Source: Acidobacteriota bacterium
GTDB taxonomy: Bacteria > Acidobacteriota > Terriglobia > Terriglobales > Acidobacteriaceae
DNA: 64,000 bases
Direction: 5' to 3'
Assembly: GCA_003225175.1 (NCBI GenBank)
Contig: QIBA01000045.1
Coordinates: forward strand, 1 to 64,000
In this document: in pieces, positions 1,601-8,142 of the stretch
Layout: each line of letters starts with the position of its first letter
Numbering within the stretch: the first letter of the stretch is position 1
Made by a program: the position numbers and the translations under genes
The notes under the pieces: generated by a model
The model's database searches: none
Seen by the model: the letters and a program-made list of their open reading frames with translations, nothing else
Told to the model about the DNA's origin: nothing

Positions 1601-2464
1601 TTACCTGCTGGGAAATAAGAATCGCAATACCGGTTCTACGCGATCTGCCCAGGCAGCTTCTTCGTGCTTGGCTCCGGGAATGACTTCGTAATGCAGATCG
1701 TCGCCTTCACGCCATCCTCTGGCGATAAGTGCCTGGTCGAGAAGATTGGCATCGCGCACTCCAGTCTTACTTTCCTCCGTACCCATCGAGAGCCAGATTT
1801 TCAGTCGCGGCTTCGGCTGGGTCTTCTGAATGATCTTGAGAATGGCTTTGTTGTCCCACCAGAGGGAAGGAGAAAGCACCGCTACTTTGCCGAAGACCTC
1901 AGGATGTGTGAATCCCAGATAGAGAGTTGCGAGTCCGCCGAGTGATGATCCGCCAAGACCGGTATGGTGCGCGTCACGCAGGGTGCGGTAGCGCGCTTCG
2001 ATAAAAGGCTTAAGCTCTTCGACGAGCATGCGTCCGTAGAGCTCGGCATGTCCGCCACCAAGCTTGCGGTCGCGAGTAGGCGTGTACTCTTCGATGCGGT
2101 GCTTCCCGGTGTTGTAGATGCCTACGATGATCAAGGGTTCTATCTCACCGGATCGGATTAGCGCCTCGGCAGTCTCATCGACCTTCCAATCCATTCCCCG
2201 GACGTAAGCGGTCTCAGGATCAAACAGGTTCTGGCCGTCGTGTAGATATAGAACCGGGTAGCGGCTCTCACTGTGTTCGTAGTTTGGCGGAAGATAAACG
2301 ACTAGATCGCGACGATAAGGCACGAAGTTAGAGATGAAGTTGTGGTGGCGCTGAACTCTGTCGGTGTTGTGAACATCAGTTTGTGATGTTTCTACTTCCG
2401 GCGCGGATTGAGAAACCTGCTCCGCGCCATTGGCTTCTGCAATGTCGAAATTTTCAGTAGACAT
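1601..2464 (-). CDS. Alpha/beta-hydrolase esterase (enterochelin esterase / esterase D-like)
   Basis: A 287-residue serine hydrolase of the putative esterase family (PF00756-like). About 40 polar N-terminal residues precede a YLPPNY strand, VLYLHDGQNLFD and the nucleophile elbow GGSSLGG, with the likely catalytic serine at residue 174. The probable catalytic histidine is in PGAKHEEAAW near the C-terminus. No signal peptide is visible, so it is probably cytoplasmic. It is transcribed away from the second esterase at 2677, with a palindromic intergenic element between them. Its position suggests it may belong to the ligase/peptidase cluster to its right, but being on the opposite strand it could equally be an independent gene. 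The substrate is unknown. Confidence 0.85.
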   Translation of the reverse strand: MSTENFDIAEANGAEQVSQSAPEVETSQTDVHNTDRVQRHHNFISNFVPYRRDLVVYLPPNYEHSESRYPVLYLHDGQNLFDPETAYVRGMDWKVDETAEALIRSGEIEPLIIVGIYNTGKHRIEEYTPTRDRKLGGGHAELYGRMLVEELKPFIEARYRTLRDAHHTGLGGSSLGGLATLYLGFTHPEVFGKVAVLSPSLWWDNKAILKIIQKTQPKPRLKIWLSMGTEESKTGVRDANLLDQALIARGWREGDDLHYEVIPGAKHEEAAWADRVEPVLRFLFPSR

Positions 2465-2535
2465 CCTTTGCTGTTAGAGTACACGGCGCACTCAATGTTG
2501 CAAGCGGAAATCGTGCGGCGCGGCTATGAGCGGCA

Positions 2536-2665
2536 TTCGGCTGTCGGCATTCGGCCAACTATCAGTTTGGTCCAGGCCGCAAAGGGAATTGGGCCGTGAC
2601 GAAAGCCTCCGCGTGAGTCACACGAAAAGCTTGGTTGGCTGAATGCCGAAGGCCGACCAGCCGAA
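2536..2665. repeat. Imperfect palindromic intergenic element
   Basis: A left arm at 2536-2558 and a right arm at 2635-2665 are near-perfect reverse complements. The core TTGGC(C/T)GAATGCCGA of the right arm matches the inverted left arm, which is then interrupted in the right arm by about eight extra bases before CAGCCGAA. The arms flank about 76 bp. This resembles a REP- or MITE-type element between two divergent esterase genes. The open frame that extends the downstream esterase to 2635 runs into the right arm, which argues for the later ATG at 2677. Confidence 0.5.
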
Positions 2666-2676
2666 AGCCTATTTCC

Positions 2677-3390
2677 ATGAACCGCGAGTATCACAAATGG
2701 TGGTCACCGCGTCTTGGACGCGATATGGAGCTGTTGGTCTTCGGGCATGCCGGCTTGCCCGCAATCGTGTTCCCCACTTCGCAGGGTCGCTTTTTTGAGT
2801 TTGAGGATCGCGGCATGGTGGGCGCAATCTGGCGCAAGATTGAGAGTGGAGGCTTGCAGCTCTATTGCGTTGACAGCGTTGACAGCGAGAGCTGGTACAA
2901 CAAGAATGTTCCTCCCCGCTGGCGGATTGCACGCCACGTGCAATATGAAGACTATGTGCTGCACGAAGTCGTCCCGCTGATTAAATTGAAGAATTCGCGC
3001 TGGGATCTCGCCACTACGGGATGTTCGTTCGGCGCATATCACGCCATGAACCTGGCCTTGCGCCATCCCGATTTGGTAAGTGGGAGCGTGAGCATGGGCG
3101 GGGCATTCGACATCATTCAATTTCTAAACGGCTACTACGACGATGACGTTTACTTCAACAATCCTCCACATTATTTACGCAACATAAGCGATGGCTGGCA
3201 TCTGGATCGCTGCCGGCAGAACAAGTATGTATTAGCGACAGGAGAGCACGACATGTGCTGGAACGAAAACGAACGTCTCGCCGAAATCATGCGGGACAAG
3301 CATATTCCACATCGGCTCGATGTATGGCGCGATCAGACCGGCCACGATTGGCCCTGGTGGCAACGAATGGCGCAGGTGTATTTCGCATAA
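2677..3390 (+). CDS. Alpha/beta-hydrolase esterase of the ligase cluster
   Basis: A 237-residue predicted esterase, different in sequence from the one at 1601. It starts MNREYHKWWSPRLGRDMELL, has no signal peptide, and carries the nucleophile elbow TTGCSFGAYHAMN with the likely catalytic serine near residue 117. The acid is probably in ATGEHDMCW and the histidine in QTGHDWPWW near the end, giving a plausible Ser-Asp-His triad. The ATG at 2677 is preferred because upstream sequence belongs to a palindromic repeat. It is the first plus-strand gene of the cluster that continues with an ATP-grasp ligase 142 bp later. By context it may release, hydrolyse or transacylate a ligase product; that is inference. 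Confidence 0.82.
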   Translation: MNREYHKWWSPRLGRDMELLVFGHAGLPAIVFPTSQGRFFEFEDRGMVGAIWRKIESGGLQLYCVDSVDSESWYNKNVPPRWRIARHVQYEDYVLHEVVPLIKLKNSRWDLATTGCSFGAYHAMNLALRHPDLVSGSVSMGGAFDIIQFLNGYYDDDVYFNNPPHYLRNISDGWHLDRCRQNKYVLATGEHDMCWNENERLAEIMRDKHIPHRLDVWRDQTGHDWPWWQRMAQVYFA

Positions 3391-3532
3391 AGGCAGCAAT
3401 TAGCGATGATCCATTAGCCATTGGCGAAAGCGCGAGCCCGGCCATTCGGCGGACTATGGCTGCTGCGCAGCCTGGGCTGGAGGCCGGCATGTGCTCAAAG
3501 AAGTAGAATAGAAGACCCCTCTGGAGCCTCAA

Positions 3533-4558
3533 ATGGCCACTCACAAAATCGGCATCATCTTTGGCATGGAGAACACTTTTCCTGGCGCCTTCGTCGAAAA
3601 AGTCAATTCCATGGGTAATCGCGACGTACATGCGGAGTTCATCAAGATTGGCGGCATTCGTATGGCGGAGCCAAGCGGCTACAGCGTGATCGTTGATCGC
3701 ATCTCGCATGACATTCCGTTTTATCGTGCGTATCTGAAGAACGCCGCCCTCAACGGCACGATCGTGATCAACAATTCATTTTGGTGGAGCGCCGACGATA
3801 AATTCTTCAACTACGCGCTGGCCGAGAAGTTGGGTGTTGCGGTGCCGCCGACCGTGATCCTGCCGCATAAGGAGCATCCACCGGGAACGACCGATCAATC
3901 CATGCGCAACCTGATCTATCCCATGAATTGGGATGAGGTCTTCCAATATGTCAAATTCCCAGCGTTTCTCAAGCCATTCAATGGTGGAGGATGGCGCGAC
4001 GTGTATCACGTGCACACGCCCGAAGATTTCTTCCGTGCCTACGATCAGACGCGCGATCTCTGCATGACGCTGCAGCGCGCAGTGAAGTTCCAGGAATACT
4101 TCCGTTGCTACGTTGTCGGGCAAGAGAAGGTACACATCATGCAATACGATCCTCGGCGACCACATCACGAGCGATATGTGAAAGATGGTCCGAAGATCGA
4201 TCCTAAGCTGCTGGAACGAGTGGAGCGCGATGCGCTCACGCTTTGCCGGGCACTCGGGTACGACTTGAACACGGTCGAGTTCGCGTGCGAGGACCGAATT
4301 CCGTATGCAATCGATTTCATGAATCCAGCTCCGGATGCGGACGTGAATTCCGTGGGACAAGATAACTTCGACTGGATCGTCAATGCCGTCGCAGAGCTGG
4401 CTGTGAAGAAAGCATTGAGCGACGAGAATCCAGCTCGAGAGCTGCGCTGGTCGGCCTTCCTTGCAGGCGGATCGTCTGGCTCTTCAAAGACCACTGCCGT
4501 GAAATCGCCAACAAAAACGCGAATCAAGGCTCCAGCGCAAACGGGTTTGAGTGCCTGA
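3533..4558 (+). CDS. ATP-grasp (RimK/carboxylate-amine ligase-like) protein
   Basis: A 341-residue protein with ATP-grasp features. A pre-ATP-grasp N-domain covers roughly residues 1-110. The nucleotide-binding strand FPAFLKPFNGGGWRDVY follows, then the hinge-like KFQEYF. Metal-binding acidic residues sit in NTVEFACEDRIPYAIDFMNP, where the E...D.N pattern is typical of the fold. Such enzymes activate a carboxylate as an acyl phosphate and join it to an amine. GGAG lies six bases before the ATG. The gene is followed after 11 bp by the GCS2-type ligase. The C-terminal 45 residues are Ser/Thr/Lys-rich and probably disordered. Substrates cannot be read from sequence. Confidence 0.8.
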   Translation: MATHKIGIIFGMENTFPGAFVEKVNSMGNRDVHAEFIKIGGIRMAEPSGYSVIVDRISHDIPFYRAYLKNAALNGTIVINNSFWWSADDKFFNYALAEKLGVAVPPTVILPHKEHPPGTTDQSMRNLIYPMNWDEVFQYVKFPAFLKPFNGGGWRDVYHVHTPEDFFRAYDQTRDLCMTLQRAVKFQEYFRCYVVGQEKVHIMQYDPRRPHHERYVKDGPKIDPKLLERVERDALTLCRALGYDLNTVEFACEDRIPYAIDFMNPAPDADVNSVGQDNFDWIVNAVAELAVKKALSDENPARELRWSAFLAGGSSGSSKTTAVKSPTKTRIKAPAQTGLSA

Positions 4559-4569
4559 GCGAAAACACC

Positions 4570-5703
4570 ATGAAGCCGTCATTCACCATCGGTATTGAAG
4601 AGGAATATCAGACAATCGATCCTGAGACCCGAGATCTGCGTTCGCACATCCACAGCGAGATCATCGCCAAGGGCAAGCGAATCATGGAAGAGCAGATCAA
4701 GGCGGAGATGCACCAGTCTGTCGTAGAAGTGGGAACTGGCGTTTGCAAGAACATCAAGGAGGCCAAGAAGGACATTCGCAAGCTGCGCCACGACATGATC
4801 AAGCTCGCCAAAGACAATGGACTCTTGCTCGCCGCAGGCGCTACGCATCCCTTTGCCGATTGGCGATCGCAGGAAATTTATCCGGACGAGCGCTACCGCA
4901 AAGTCGTCGAGGACTTGCAGCTTGTGGCACGCGCCAACCTGATCTTCGGATTACATGTCCACGTCGGTATTGAGGATCGTGAAACCACGATCCATGTGAT
5001 GAACCAGGCACGCTATTTTCTGCCGCACCTTCTCGCGCTTTCTGCGAATTCTCCATTCTGGTTGGGAATGAATACGGGACTAAAGTCCTATCGCTGCAAA
5101 GTGTTCGACAAATTCCCGCGAACCAACATTCCCAATTCGTATTCCAGCTGGTCGGAGTACGAGAACTTCGTGAATTTACTCATCAAGACCAACTGCATCG
5201 ATAACGCTAAGAAGATATGGTGGGATATCCGCCCGCATCCGTTCTTCAATACACTCGAGTTCCGAGTGTGCGATATTCCCATGCGTCTCGAAGAGACGAT
5301 TGCGCTGGCTGCTCTTATTCAGGCCACCATCGCGAAGCTCTATAGGTTGCACTCGCGCAACCAGGGATTTCGCATCTATGGGCGGGCACTGCTCATGGAA
5401 AACAAATGGCGCGCTGCTCGCTATGGTCTCGACGGCAAACTGATCGACTTCGGCATTGAAGCCGAGGTCAACGAGCGCGATCTCATTTACGAATATCTGG
5501 AGTTTGTTGACGATGTGCTCGACGAGCTAGATAGCCGGGAAGAGATCAACTATATTCATCGTATCCTTGAGATGGGGAACGGCGCTGACCGTCAGCTCAA
5601 GGCGTTTGAAGAAACCGGAGATCTGAAGAAAGTGGTCGACTACATGGTGGAAGAGACGAAGGTAGGCGTGTTTGACACCGAAACCGCTTCGGTGACTCAC
5701 TGA
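4570..5703 (+). CDS. Carboxylate-amine ligase, GCS2/YbdK family
   Basis: A 377-residue member of the glutamate-cysteine ligase type 2 superfamily (YbdK-like). It opens with SFTIGIEEEYQTIDPETRDL, the characteristic metal-binding glutamate strand. It continues with EVGTGVCKNIKEA, AAGATHPFADW and GLHVHVGI, then RPHPFFNTLEFRVCD. The family condenses a carboxylate, often glutamate-like, with an amine using ATP. It sits 11 bp after the ATP-grasp gene and its TGA overlaps the next ATG by one base (TGATG at 5701-5705), which suggests translational coupling to the peptidase. The pairing of two different ATP-dependent ligases suggests successive amide-bond formation. The true substrate is unknown, and the name glutamate-cysteine ligase should not be applied. 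Confidence 0.9.
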   Translation: MKPSFTIGIEEEYQTIDPETRDLRSHIHSEIIAKGKRIMEEQIKAEMHQSVVEVGTGVCKNIKEAKKDIRKLRHDMIKLAKDNGLLLAAGATHPFADWRSQEIYPDERYRKVVEDLQLVARANLIFGLHVHVGIEDRETTIHVMNQARYFLPHLLALSANSPFWLGMNTGLKSYRCKVFDKFPRTNIPNSYSSWSEYENFVNLLIKTNCIDNAKKIWWDIRPHPFFNTLEFRVCDIPMRLEETIALAALIQATIAKLYRLHSRNQGFRIYGRALLMENKWRAARYGLDGKLIDFGIEAEVNERDLIYEYLEFVDDVLDELDSREEINYIHRILEMGNGADRQLKAFEETGDLKKVVDYMVEETKVGVFDTETASVTH

Positions 5704-6761
5704 TGGGAGTAGTTAGTACGCGCGACAGCGCAATCCGCACGCCAGATCGCCTTAACGTTCCAATCGATCCGGAATTGGCTCCCGGAGCCCGCAATGCGGT
5801 TCGCATTTGCCTCCGCATTCAGCCAACGGAAAAAGTCACGATCATTACCGATCTTGTGAGCCGCGAGATTGCGGCGAGCATTGCAAGAGAAGTGGAGACC
5901 GTGGGTTCTCCTTTCAATGCATTTGTCCTCGAAGATCTCGCTTCGCGACCGCTGACCGGCCTACCGGTAGAGATCGCCGATGACCTCGAAACCAGTCAGG
6001 TCAGTATCTTCGCGGTTCAGGTCCAGACCAACGAGCTGCGCTCGCGCATGCAGATGACCGACATCGTAAATCGCCGGCATATCCGGCACGCGCACATGGT
6101 GAACATTAACCGGCAGATCATGCTCGAAGGCATGCGCGCAGACTTTCTGAAAGTGGATCGCATCAGCAGCAAAGTCCTGGAAATGGTGAGCGGGGCAAAG
6201 CAGATCAAAGCCCGGACGCCTGCGGGAAGCGATTTCGTTGCCGATATCGAACCGAGCTACAGGTGGCTCAAAACCAGCGGTCTGATCAGTCCTGACAAGT
6301 GGGGAAATCTACCTGGTGGCGAGATCTTTACTACGCCGGGCGAAGTGAACGGCACCTACGTGATCGATGGAGTTGTCGGAGATTATCTGTGCGCGAAATT
6401 CGGCGATCTCAAGCAGACGCCGCTCACGATCCGGGTAAAAGGGAATCGGCTGACCGAAGCTTATAGCGACAACAAAGAATTGGAGCAGGATTTCTGGGCA
6501 TACACCCATACTGATGACAACAGCGATCGTGTCGGTGAGTTCGCTATTGGCACCAACATCGAATTAAAAGACGTGATCGGGCACATCCTGCAGGATGAGA
6601 AATTTCCTGGCATCCATATCGCATTCGGCAATCCTTATGGAGAGCACACCGGCGCCAAGTGGTACTCATCGACTCACATCGATGTTGTTGGGCGAAGATT
6701 TGATATTTGGGTCGATGATCAGCAAATCATGCGCGAAGGCAAGTTTTTGATGGAGGCTTAA
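5703..6761 (+). CDS. Leucyl aminopeptidase-like metallopeptidase (M29 type)
   Basis: A 352-residue protein resembling thermophilic M29 aminopeptidases. Family signs are in the C-terminal half: VGEFAIGTN (metal-ligand glutamate), IHIAFGNPYGEHTGAKW and STHIDVVGR (histidine and aspartate ligands). About 120 N-terminal residues form the alpha/beta domain. No signal peptide is present. The ATG overlaps the stop of the ligase gene by one base. Within this cluster it could trim or mature a peptide, or recycle a failed product. It is somewhat shorter than the roughly 400 residues usual for M29, so the exact subfamily is uncertain. Confidence 0.8.
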   Translation: MGVVSTRDSAIRTPDRLNVPIDPELAPGARNAVRICLRIQPTEKVTIITDLVSREIAASIAREVETVGSPFNAFVLEDLASRPLTGLPVEIADDLETSQVSIFAVQVQTNELRSRMQMTDIVNRRHIRHAHMVNINRQIMLEGMRADFLKVDRISSKVLEMVSGAKQIKARTPAGSDFVADIEPSYRWLKTSGLISPDKWGNLPGGEIFTTPGEVNGTYVIDGVVGDYLCAKFGDLKQTPLTIRVKGNRLTEAYSDNKELEQDFWAYTHTDDNSDRVGEFAIGTNIELKDVIGHILQDEKFPGIHIAFGNPYGEHTGAKWYSSTHIDVVGRRFDIWVDDQQIMREGKFLMEA

Positions 6762-6772
6762 GATCTATTCAC

Positions 6773-6837
6773 CACGGAGTCACGGGGTCACGGAGAGGCC
6801 TTTTGTCATTGCGAACCGCCTTCGGCGAGGAATCTCC
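6773..6837. repeat. Degenerate intergenic repeat (CACGG triplet plus GAGGAATCTCC motif)
   Basis: Three copies of an 8-bp unit (CACGGAGT, CACGGGGT, CACGGAGA) at 6773-6796 are followed at 6803-6837 by a stretch starting TTGTCATTGCGAA and ending GAGGAATCTCC. Both resemble noncoding sequences I recall as scattered, repeated intergenic text in acidobacterial and some other genomes; the copy here looks decayed. It separates the peptidase gene from the second ATP-grasp-like gene, so the latter may have its own promoter. Confidence 0.45.
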
Positions 6838-6892
6838 ACTTTGGCCCGAACGGCACGCACTGCCGATGGTTGATGTTTAAAATGTCGGGCGC

Positions 6893-8086
6893 ATGATTCC
6901 GCACCTTCGTCGCGCGTTTAATCAGCAATTCACTCCCGAGAAGTACAGAAAATTCCTTACAGCACTTGACCGCCGCTGTGGCACACCAGTGAAATTCCGC
7001 GTTGCGGAAACCCCCTGCTTTTTCCCTAAATCACTACTAGACAAGATGGCCGAAGAAGGCACAATGCTTGTGAACCAACTGCTCGACAGTGGGGCGTATC
7101 GCAAGCAGTCCGACGCAACGATTCCGAGCGAATACAACGTGCCGAACGAGTCGAATCACCCAATGTTCTTGCAGGTCGACTTCGGCCTCACTTGCACACG
7201 CGGCAAGGTAGAACCTAAGTTGGTGGAGCTGCAAGCGTTCCCTTCGCTCTATGCATATCAGCCCGCACTCACGCAGGAATATCGCAAGAGCTATTCGCTC
7301 GATCCGGCGACGCATGCTTTCCTGTCGGGACTCGATTTCGACAGCTATCACCAGCTTCTGCGCCAAGCAATTGTCGGAGAACATTCTCCGGAGAACGTGA
7401 TCCTGCTTGAGATCGATCCAATGGAGCAAAAGACGCTTCCGGATTTTCTGCTTACGAAAGAGCTGTGTGGTATTGAGACAGTGAATGTCCTCGACCTGCT
7501 GAAGCAGGGAAGAGCGCTCTATTATGAGAAACATGGCAAGCAAGTCCGAGTAGAGCGAATCTACAATCGCATGATCGTCGATGAGGTCATACGAAAGGCG
7601 ATCAAGCTGCCGTTCGACTTACGTGACGATCTCGATGTCGAGTGGGCCGGTCATCCCAACTGGTATTTTCGTATCAGTAAATTTTCTATTCCTTTTCTGA
7701 AACACGCGTCCGTGCCGCGCACATGGTTTCTTGATGAACTCGATTCATTGCCTGGCGATCGAGAAAACTATCTGCTCAAGCCGCTCTATTCGTTTGCGGG
7801 AATCGGGATCAAGTTTGCGCCAACGGACGAAGACATCGCTGCGATTCCACAACAGCAACGCCACGAGTACATCATTCAGGAGCGGATCGCGTTTGAGCCA
7901 GTAATCGATACTCCTCATGGTATGACGCAGGCGGAGATTCGCATTATGTACATCTGGCGCGATGGCGACCCGCAGCCCACACCGGTGCTCACTCTAGTGC
8001 GGATGGGGCGCGGCAAGATGATGGGCGTTGATCACAATCGCAATCTCGAATGGGTTGGTGGCTCAGCCGGACTTTGGGCCGACTGA
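6893..8086 (+). CDS. Uncharacterised ATP-grasp-like protein
   Basis: A 397-residue protein I do not recognise by name. Its C-terminal third reads like an ATP-grasp nucleotide-binding region: NYLLKPLYSFAGIGIKF (Lys and Gly-rich loop), YIIQERIAF (hinge Gln-Glu), AEIRIMYIW and TLVRMGRGKMMGVDHN. The N-terminal 270 residues carry VDFGLTCTRGKVEPKLVELQAFPS and YNRMIVDEVI. The arrangement is reminiscent of permuted ATP-grasp enzymes. No signal peptide or membrane segment is visible. It lies 131 bp after the peptidase on the same strand, across a repeat-like spacer, and is probably the last member of the cluster. A ligase role is inferred from the fold and the neighbours only. Confidence 0.65.
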   Translation: MIPHLRRAFNQQFTPEKYRKFLTALDRRCGTPVKFRVAETPCFFPKSLLDKMAEEGTMLVNQLLDSGAYRKQSDATIPSEYNVPNESNHPMFLQVDFGLTCTRGKVEPKLVELQAFPSLYAYQPALTQEYRKSYSLDPATHAFLSGLDFDSYHQLLRQAIVGEHSPENVILLEIDPMEQKTLPDFLLTKELCGIETVNVLDLLKQGRALYYEKHGKQVRVERIYNRMIVDEVIRKAIKLPFDLRDDLDVEWAGHPNWYFRISKFSIPFLKHASVPRTWFLDELDSLPGDRENYLLKPLYSFAGIGIKFAPTDEDIAAIPQQQRHEYIIQERIAFEPVIDTPHGMTQAEIRIMYIWRDGDPQPTPVLTLVRMGRGKMMGVDHNRNLEWVGGSAGLWAD

Positions 8087-8112: not shown

Positions 8113-8142
8113 GGTATAGACGCAGCATGCTGCGTCTCTACC
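8113..8142. repeat. 30-bp palindrome centred at 8127/8128
   Basis: Two 15-base halves with one mismatch: the inner ten bases AGACGCAGCA are followed immediately by their exact complement, and GGTA at the left edge pairs with TACC at the right. There is no loop. It lies between the ATP-grasp-like gene (stop 8086) and the M28 peptidase (start 8165). It could be a dispersed palindromic repeat, a terminator without a T-tract, or a protein-binding site. Confidence 0.6.

Follow-up and report, generated by a model that had tools for sequence, protein, structure and literature searches.

ATP-grasp ligases of the RimK, LysX, ArgX and D-Ala-D-Ala ligase type, YbdK-type carboxylate-amine ligases (GCS2), glutathione synthetases, glutathionylspermidine synthetases, the enzymes YgiC and YjfC, the M29 aminopeptidases T, S and PepS, and NicX are the closest described counterparts of a six-gene set found in the genome of an Acidobacteriota bacterium. 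A survey of amidoligase operons by Iyer et al. (2009) reportedly used gene neighbourhood to connect peptidases with ligases of the ATP-grasp and other types, and it may list related clusters. YgiC and YjfC are termed peptidylpolyamine synthetases, after a 2023 paper, in PMC12568646, which also describes Cp1B of the fungal E-64 pathway, a stand-alone ATP-grasp ligase producing a pseudo-dipeptide. The set analysed here lies at positions 1601-8086 of the window, that is, of the whole stretch of 64,000 nucleotides that was studied (assembly GCA_003225175.1, contig QIBA01000045.1; genome G000 in our sampling). No description of this gene set was found in the titles and abstract beginnings of the open-licence literature, which is weak evidence of absence.

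Our preferred reading, held with about even confidence, is that the genes together serve to make a small amide-linked metabolite in the cytoplasm, probably a gamma-glutamyl or pseudo-peptide compound. It best explains why amide ligases of three dissimilar kinds, a serine hydrolase and an exchangeable partner that is either hydrolase- or amidotransferase-like are conserved together with their putative active sites intact. A preliminary description of the locus had proposed one unit that makes and processes an amide-linked compound, or else modifies a protein tail. The proposal is supported in part: a gene order shared across phyla, co-occurrence in genomes, alternative genes in two slots and near-invariant putative catalytic residues speak for one such unit. 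All six genes were present with the coordinates and strands originally given, and ATP-dependent ligases were indeed among them, but where two had been counted three amide ligases were found. A divergent PF00756 esterase, P0001 (1601..2464, minus strand; 120.7 bits), is followed on the plus strand by an esterase-like alpha/beta serine hydrolase, P0002 (2677..3390; PF00756, 31.8 bits), the core gene P0003, an ATP-grasp ligase with a predicted RimK/LysX/Ddl-like fold (3533..4558), the YbdK-type GCS2 carboxylate-amine ligase P0004 (4570..5703), the M29-type metallopeptidase-like protein P0005 (5703..6761) and P0006 (6893..8086), predicted to be a circularly permuted ATP-grasp ligase with the glutathione-synthetase/glutathionylspermidine-synthetase fold. 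In other clusters a second circularly permuted ligase family of about 450 residues, F5, is found as an alternative to P0006. The distances between the plus-strand genes from P0002 to P0006 are 142, 11, -1 and 131 bases, and the reported TGATG overlap of the GCS2 and peptidase genes is real, the two sharing one base within 5701-5705. For P0002 an ATG start at 2677 was preferred over a TTG at 2635.

A search for the same gene order across genomes recovered a conserved neighbourhood, so that the preliminary proposal withstood the refutation it had named, a lack of any such neighbourhood in relatives; the genes also occur apart in some genomes. The loci compared were the best 80 of at least 584 confirmed matches in named records, a set that leans to Acidobacteriota, and a locus was called testable where there was room to see the neighbour in question. 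P0003 was followed by GCS2 in 51 of 69 testable loci, more than expected by chance, GCS2 by an M29 gene in 34 of 47, and the M29 gene by P0006 in 24 of 36; P0002 stood ahead of P0003 in 29 of 61. By record title these loci include Acidobacteria, Bacteroidetes, Ignavibacteria, Chlorobiota, Cloacimonetes and Rhodanobacteraceae, where single metagenome-assembled contigs may be misbinned, and the nearest relatives of G000 in the named-record scan were Acidobacteria. The order P0003-F5-GCS2 was present on one contig in seven acidobacterial genomes (G009, G051, G052, G063, G096, G123 and G132). At one further site (L012/L041, G134:C7:67468-67930) adjoining fragments match P0005 (66% over 103 amino acids, with one internal stop) and the start of P0006 (45% over 47 amino acids), and these are apparently remnants of a decayed cluster.

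The ATP-grasp labels of the preliminary description, weak by sequence since the matches fall below cut-off, proved correct when the structures of P0003 and P0006 were predicted, both models falling in ATP-grasp folds. P0003 reached only 26.9 bits against the curated cut-off of 143.4 for the RimK family of alpha-L-glutamate ligases (TIGR00768), and membership of that family was thus not obtained. Its AlphaFold model (predicted local distance difference test score, pLDDT, 82.7) was matched by Foldseek to LysX/ArgX (5k2m, E-value 4.8e-15), RimK (5zk6, 1.4e-14) and also D-Ala-D-Ala ligases. Six residues, K147, Q181, R191, E249, D261 and N264, were identical in 120 of 120 aligned rows and are putatively catalytic; the roles of such positions here and in P0002, P0005, P0006 and the amidotransferase-like protein are ones we presume from related enzymes. 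The predicted fold is thus that of RimK, LysX, ArgX and D-Ala-D-Ala ligases, from which P0003 differs by its distance below the RimK cut-off and by the lack of a carrier-like small open reading frame (ORF) among the groups inspected.

These matches bear on the main rival that remains, in which P0003 would act like RimK on the end of a cellular protein, P0006 and GCS2 would extend or cap the tail, and the M29 or amidotransferase-like enzyme would remove it. The nearest predicted folds of P0003 include RimK, with its partner RpsF (5zk6), and ArgX/LysX, with LysW, and a removing enzyme beside ligases would suit a reversible tag. The weak RimK score argues in the other direction, and so do the ORF groups inspected, with no carrier- or target-like small ORF, and the characterised fold relatives of P0006, which act on small peptides and polyamines. 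We consider modification of a protein tail rather unlikely. When 2649 small ORFs of 20-110 amino acids were clustered, the eight largest groups (5-7 loci each) held no precursor-like ORF, and the set was rejected as a graspetide cluster. Those same eight groups near the clusters likewise held no small acidic carrier of the LysW/ArgW type, the rest of the genome not having been searched. The absence of precursor- or carrier-like ORFs among the groups inspected leans towards a small molecule rather than a protein tail.

P0004 passed the cut-offs of PF04107 (219.7 bits; cut-off 21), PRK13515 (550 bits; 371) and TIGR02050 (315.2 bits; 176.4), placing it in the YbdK family, with 1tt4 and 1r8g as solved relatives. 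No other protein encoded in the window's genome matched PF04107 at E 0.001. What sets it apart from described YbdK-type enzymes is its setting amid a cluster of ATP-grasp ligases and hydrolases.

For P0006, no Pfam family scored over cut-off (best PF14397, 18.9 bits against 31.4), the circularly permuted ATP-grasp families PF14403, PF04174 and PF03738 gave no match, and a profile search of PDB sequences returned chance-level matches only. The AlphaFold model (pLDDT 90.7) matched 3n6x (6.7e-15), yeast glutathione synthetase (1m0w, 1.8e-14), YgiC (7uk8, 8.2e-13) and Cp1B (9cjn, 8.8e-11) in Foldseek. In all, 24 PDB chains were matched at E<=0.001, which by their titles are (homo)glutathione synthetases and effector proteins related to these, glutathionylspermidine and trypanothione synthetases, YgiC, YjfC and Cp1B; the human and soybean (homo)glutathione synthetases were among the matches. 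On this modelled structure P0006 is a predicted ATP-grasp enzyme of the circularly permuted type. Its putative catalytic positions were conserved among 60 rows (D96 in 60, E112 in 59, Q114 in 60, K263 in 56, K296 in 57, Q329 in 57 and R350 in 57), the remainder being mostly gaps. P0006 therefore resembles glutathione synthetase, glutathionylspermidine synthetase and YgiC/YjfC in modelled fold (Foldseek E 7e-15 to 2e-7) and in keeping putative metal and ATP residues, but differs in its 11-16% identity in the fold matches and in its partner genes. Cp1B differs in being fungal and in having other partners and substrates. The fold of P0006 is that of ligases which extend or cap gamma-glutamyl peptides, and we count this in favour of the pathway reading. 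The kinship of P0006 with F5 rests on the P0006 fold together with partial Pfam and 3n6x matches of F5, because a direct hhalign comparison was merely suggestive (E 7.6e-4, probability 25). One of four F5 members passed PF14403 (41.5 bits against 32), two scored 29.7 and 26.2, and one had no match. Two acidobacterial loci (L136 and L156) each carry two F5 ligases, between which lies a shared protein of about 705 amino acids, and a nearby gene there is one that, from its sequence, we take to resemble NAD synthetase.

The same folds would fit a low-molecular-weight thiol like glutathione, with GCS2 making gamma-Glu-Cys and P0006 or P0003 adding the third residue, as a glutathione substitute in genomes without gshB. 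GCS2 and a ligase of predicted glutathione-synthetase fold do stand together in genomes where gshB (TIGR01380) scores below cut-off, and the P0006 model matches the yeast, human and soybean (homo)glutathione synthetases. Three ligases, however, exceed what a tripeptide needs, and no GCS2 gene was nearby in nine of nine F5-type clusters of Bacteroidota, so that we think a thiol unlikely. Ordinary glutathione synthesis was itself rejected: TIGR01380 passed cut-off in 5 of 149 acidobacterial genomes and in 0 of the 40 with P0003, and in the window's genome it gave no match. Known anti-phage defence was rejected as well, since none of the 7 proteins compared with PADLOC models gave a match at E 0.01.

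Only strong hits entered the co-occurrence counts, which covered 149 sampled Acidobacteriota genomes and 198 genomes from the phylum of G149, which was taken as Bacteroidota via the Pedobacter record L246. Weaker matches were left out by eye: for P0003, 5 of 45 acidobacterial genomes (no better than about 30% identity; G008, G015, G033 and G059, which carry P0002, belong here) and 14 of 86 in Bacteroidota (E 1e-8 or weaker); for P0004, 6 of 47 (33-42% identity); for P0005, 34 of 44 (<42% identity, or the G134 fragment); for P0006, 2 of 18 in Acidobacteriota (a short weak match in G132 and the G134 fragment) and 1 of 61 in Bacteroidota (G201); for F5, 16 of 37, eight of which are family f3 genomes that lack P0003; and for P0002, 4 of 46, the three P0002 fragments of G052 being counted as one. 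On this basis P0003 was present in 40 of the 149 acidobacterial genomes. P0002 occurred in 42, of which 37 also had P0003, making these two the tightest pair, and GCS2 in 41, of which 31 had P0003. Every genome with a P0005-type gene (10), P0006 (16) or F5 (21) also carried P0003; where Acidobacteriota lacked a strong P0003 hit (109 genomes), neither P0006 nor F5 had a strong match. One or the other of these two ligases was found in 35 of the 40 P0003 genomes and both in only two. Among the 198 Bacteroidota genomes P0003 was present in 72, P0006 in 60 and both in 58; the two lay within 5 kb in 34 of the 58 and on different contigs in 20.

The exchange of one ligase for the other recurred at 40 Bacteroidota loci, a non-random choice from the 72 P0003 genomes (32 top-scoring loci and 8 picked for lacking P0006) in which the presence of F5 and GCS2 refers to the locus and not to the genome. 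P0006 was present at 17 of these loci, each of which also had GCS2, and F5 at nine, each of which had a gene like class-I glutamine amidotransferases (GATase); no locus had both ligases. Overall, 14 Bacteroidota P0003 genomes lacked P0006, and nine of the ten examined have F5 beside P0003. On a P0003 tree made by a quick method (78 rows, the Bacteroidota rows scored for F5 by locus and for P0006 by genome), the Bacteroidota F5 rows grouped among P0006-type rows with a Shimodaira-Hasegawa-like approximate likelihood ratio (SH-aLRT) of 99, the nesting forks having 80-84. The state changed between F5 and P0006 twice, so the ligase was probably swapped twice, in few independent events. A loose association, in which genes of separate small pathways are adjacent by chance in related genomes, would be consistent with P-values inflated by kinship, with so few switches, with modular losses and with genes that lie apart in some genomes. 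It accords poorly with an order shared by several phyla, with P0003 and P0006 sharing a genome even on different contigs in 20 of 58 Bacteroidota genomes, and with the lack of strong P0006 or F5 matches wherever strong P0003 was missing in Acidobacteriota, and we hold it the least probable of the explanations considered.

P0001 is a facultative, minority member. Of the best 80 loci, 34 were testable for it, and in 14 of these it precedes P0002 in divergent orientation; it is placed in the same way in the Bacteroidota loci L309, L315 and L318. P0002 kept a putative catalytic triad (S117 in 58, D192 in 61 and H223 in 58 of 61 rows). P0005 scored 39.0 bits with PF02073 (cut-off 27), a match confined to positions 205-353 of an M29 model 406 positions long, and its putative metal ligands E207, E279, H305, H325 and D327 were conserved in 48-50 of 51 aligned rows, with gaps in the others. 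With the cut-off passed and the putative two-metal ligands retained, P0005 was assigned to the M29 metallopeptidase family as a putative peptidase, in likeness to aminopeptidases T, S and PepS. Its top PDB profile match was NicX (7cn3, 54.8 bits), ahead of AmpS (1zjc, 39.4 bits). NicX is a dioxygenase, but in these alignments it has no counterpart of the two glutamates, E207 and E279, that P0005 shares with AmpS, and the alignment therefore favours reading P0005 as a putative two-metal hydrolase.

A class-I GATase-like gene (PF00117, 40.1 bits) was present at seven of the best 80 loci, in the M29 position in six (L238, L239, L242, L246, L247 and L248) and after GCS2 in L244. The swap in the M29 position is seen in several clusters of Bacteroidota and Ignavibacteria. 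At the 40 Bacteroidota loci the GATase-like gene was found in 13 and an M29 gene in two. All 13 aligned rows from Bacteroidota retain the putative Cys-His-Glu residues, and a search of PDB sequences with this protein gave no match. Weak GATase-like matches in Acidobacteriota differ in position: in G067 the match has P0006 on one side and GCS2 on the other, in G054 it is next to F5, and in G107 it lies several kb away from the cluster. Two esterases and a peptidase-like enzyme would also suit a catabolic or scavenging unit, whose main activity would be hydrolysis of ester- or amide-linked compounds and whose ligases would re-use the fragments. The tight pairing of P0002 with P0003 (found in 42 and 40 genomes, 37 of them shared) points the same way, as do neighbours that we presume to be transporter-like in 6 of the best 80 loci and 4 of the 40 Bacteroidota loci. 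Such neighbours are few and non-adjacent, though, and the two or three ATP-consuming ligases kept in many clusters suit synthesis; we find scavenging quite improbable.

Several observations weigh against a single metabolite pathway. The Fisher values for co-occurrence, down to 7e-34, ignore kinship and are inflated, and the F5/P0006 exchange amounts to only two swap events. GCS2 occurred without strong P0003 in 10 of 41 acidobacterial GCS2 genomes, and G049, G112 and G147 had P0002 and P0003 with no strong match of the other genes, as in a modular set. The restriction of F5 to P0003 genomes breaks at a looser cut-off, with F5-like matches of E 1e-49 to 1e-62 in eight genomes of family f3 without P0003. 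Among Bacteroidota, GCS2 stood near F5 at 0 of 9 loci, and P0003 was alone at 13 of the 40 loci, 12 of those 13 genomes carrying P0006 elsewhere. One P0003 genome (G067) had a full-length glutathione-synthase match of 183 bits, below cut-off, and the higher score of P0005 with a dioxygenase than with aminopeptidases also counts here.

Under the preferred pathway reading we infer the following steps, substrates and product. The GCS2 enzyme P0004 would form the first amide on a carboxylate, for example the gamma-carboxylate of glutamate, and P0003 would attach another residue. P0006 or F5 could then complete the chain with a final residue or an amine cap, in the manner of glutathione synthetase, glutathionylspermidine synthetase and YgiC/YjfC. 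Trimming or recycling of the product may fall to the M29-type enzyme or to the enzyme of class-I amidotransferase fold that takes its slot in several clusters of Bacteroidota and Ignavibacteria, and the amidotransferase form might alternatively supply ammonia for a terminal amide. P0002 would remove or transfer an acyl group. The two slots with interchangeable enzymes (P0006 or F5; M29 or amidotransferase-like) offer direct handles on this chemistry. Conservation across phyla and near-invariant putative catalytic residues imply a compound made by many bacteria yet unnamed in the literature searched. More ambitiously, and in our view doubtfully, this could be a widespread and undescribed amide metabolite of Acidobacteriota and Bacteroidota, such as a gamma-glutamyl peptide or a peptide-polyamine cofactor, built by three unlike ligases under interchangeable peptidase- or amidotransferase-like control. 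The gene set could also help to explain what YbdK-type GCS2 enzymes, and one branch of the circularly permuted ATP-grasps, do in the cell.

The genes flanking the set in the window were not counted as members. GlgA (57-1586), just ahead of the cluster, was a neighbour in only 2 of the best 80 related loci and was rejected; a GlgA-like gene lies immediately after P0006 in the Cloacimonetes record L249, in the window before the cluster instead. An M28-family peptidase directly 3' of P0006 (8165-9772, plus strand; PF04389, 162 bits; N-terminal hydrophobic stretch) was rejected likewise, being present in 1 of the best 80 loci (the closest relative, L170). Ten of these 80 loci share a downstream gene (L178, L182, L185, L188, L200, L204, L209, L210, L213 and L217) that we take, from its sequence, to be aldo/keto-reductase-like. 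Six have a recurring gene 6-8 kb downstream of P0003 (L178, L185, L195, L198, L205 and L217), presumably of the major-facilitator type, and four of the 40 Bacteroidota loci (L309, L323, L325 and L326) have another, which we take to be like ATP-binding-cassette ATPases. An imperfect 23-base inverted repeat, 87% complementary, lies between the divergent esterase genes (2537-2559/2634-2656), and a hairpin lies 3' of P0006 at 8113-8142.

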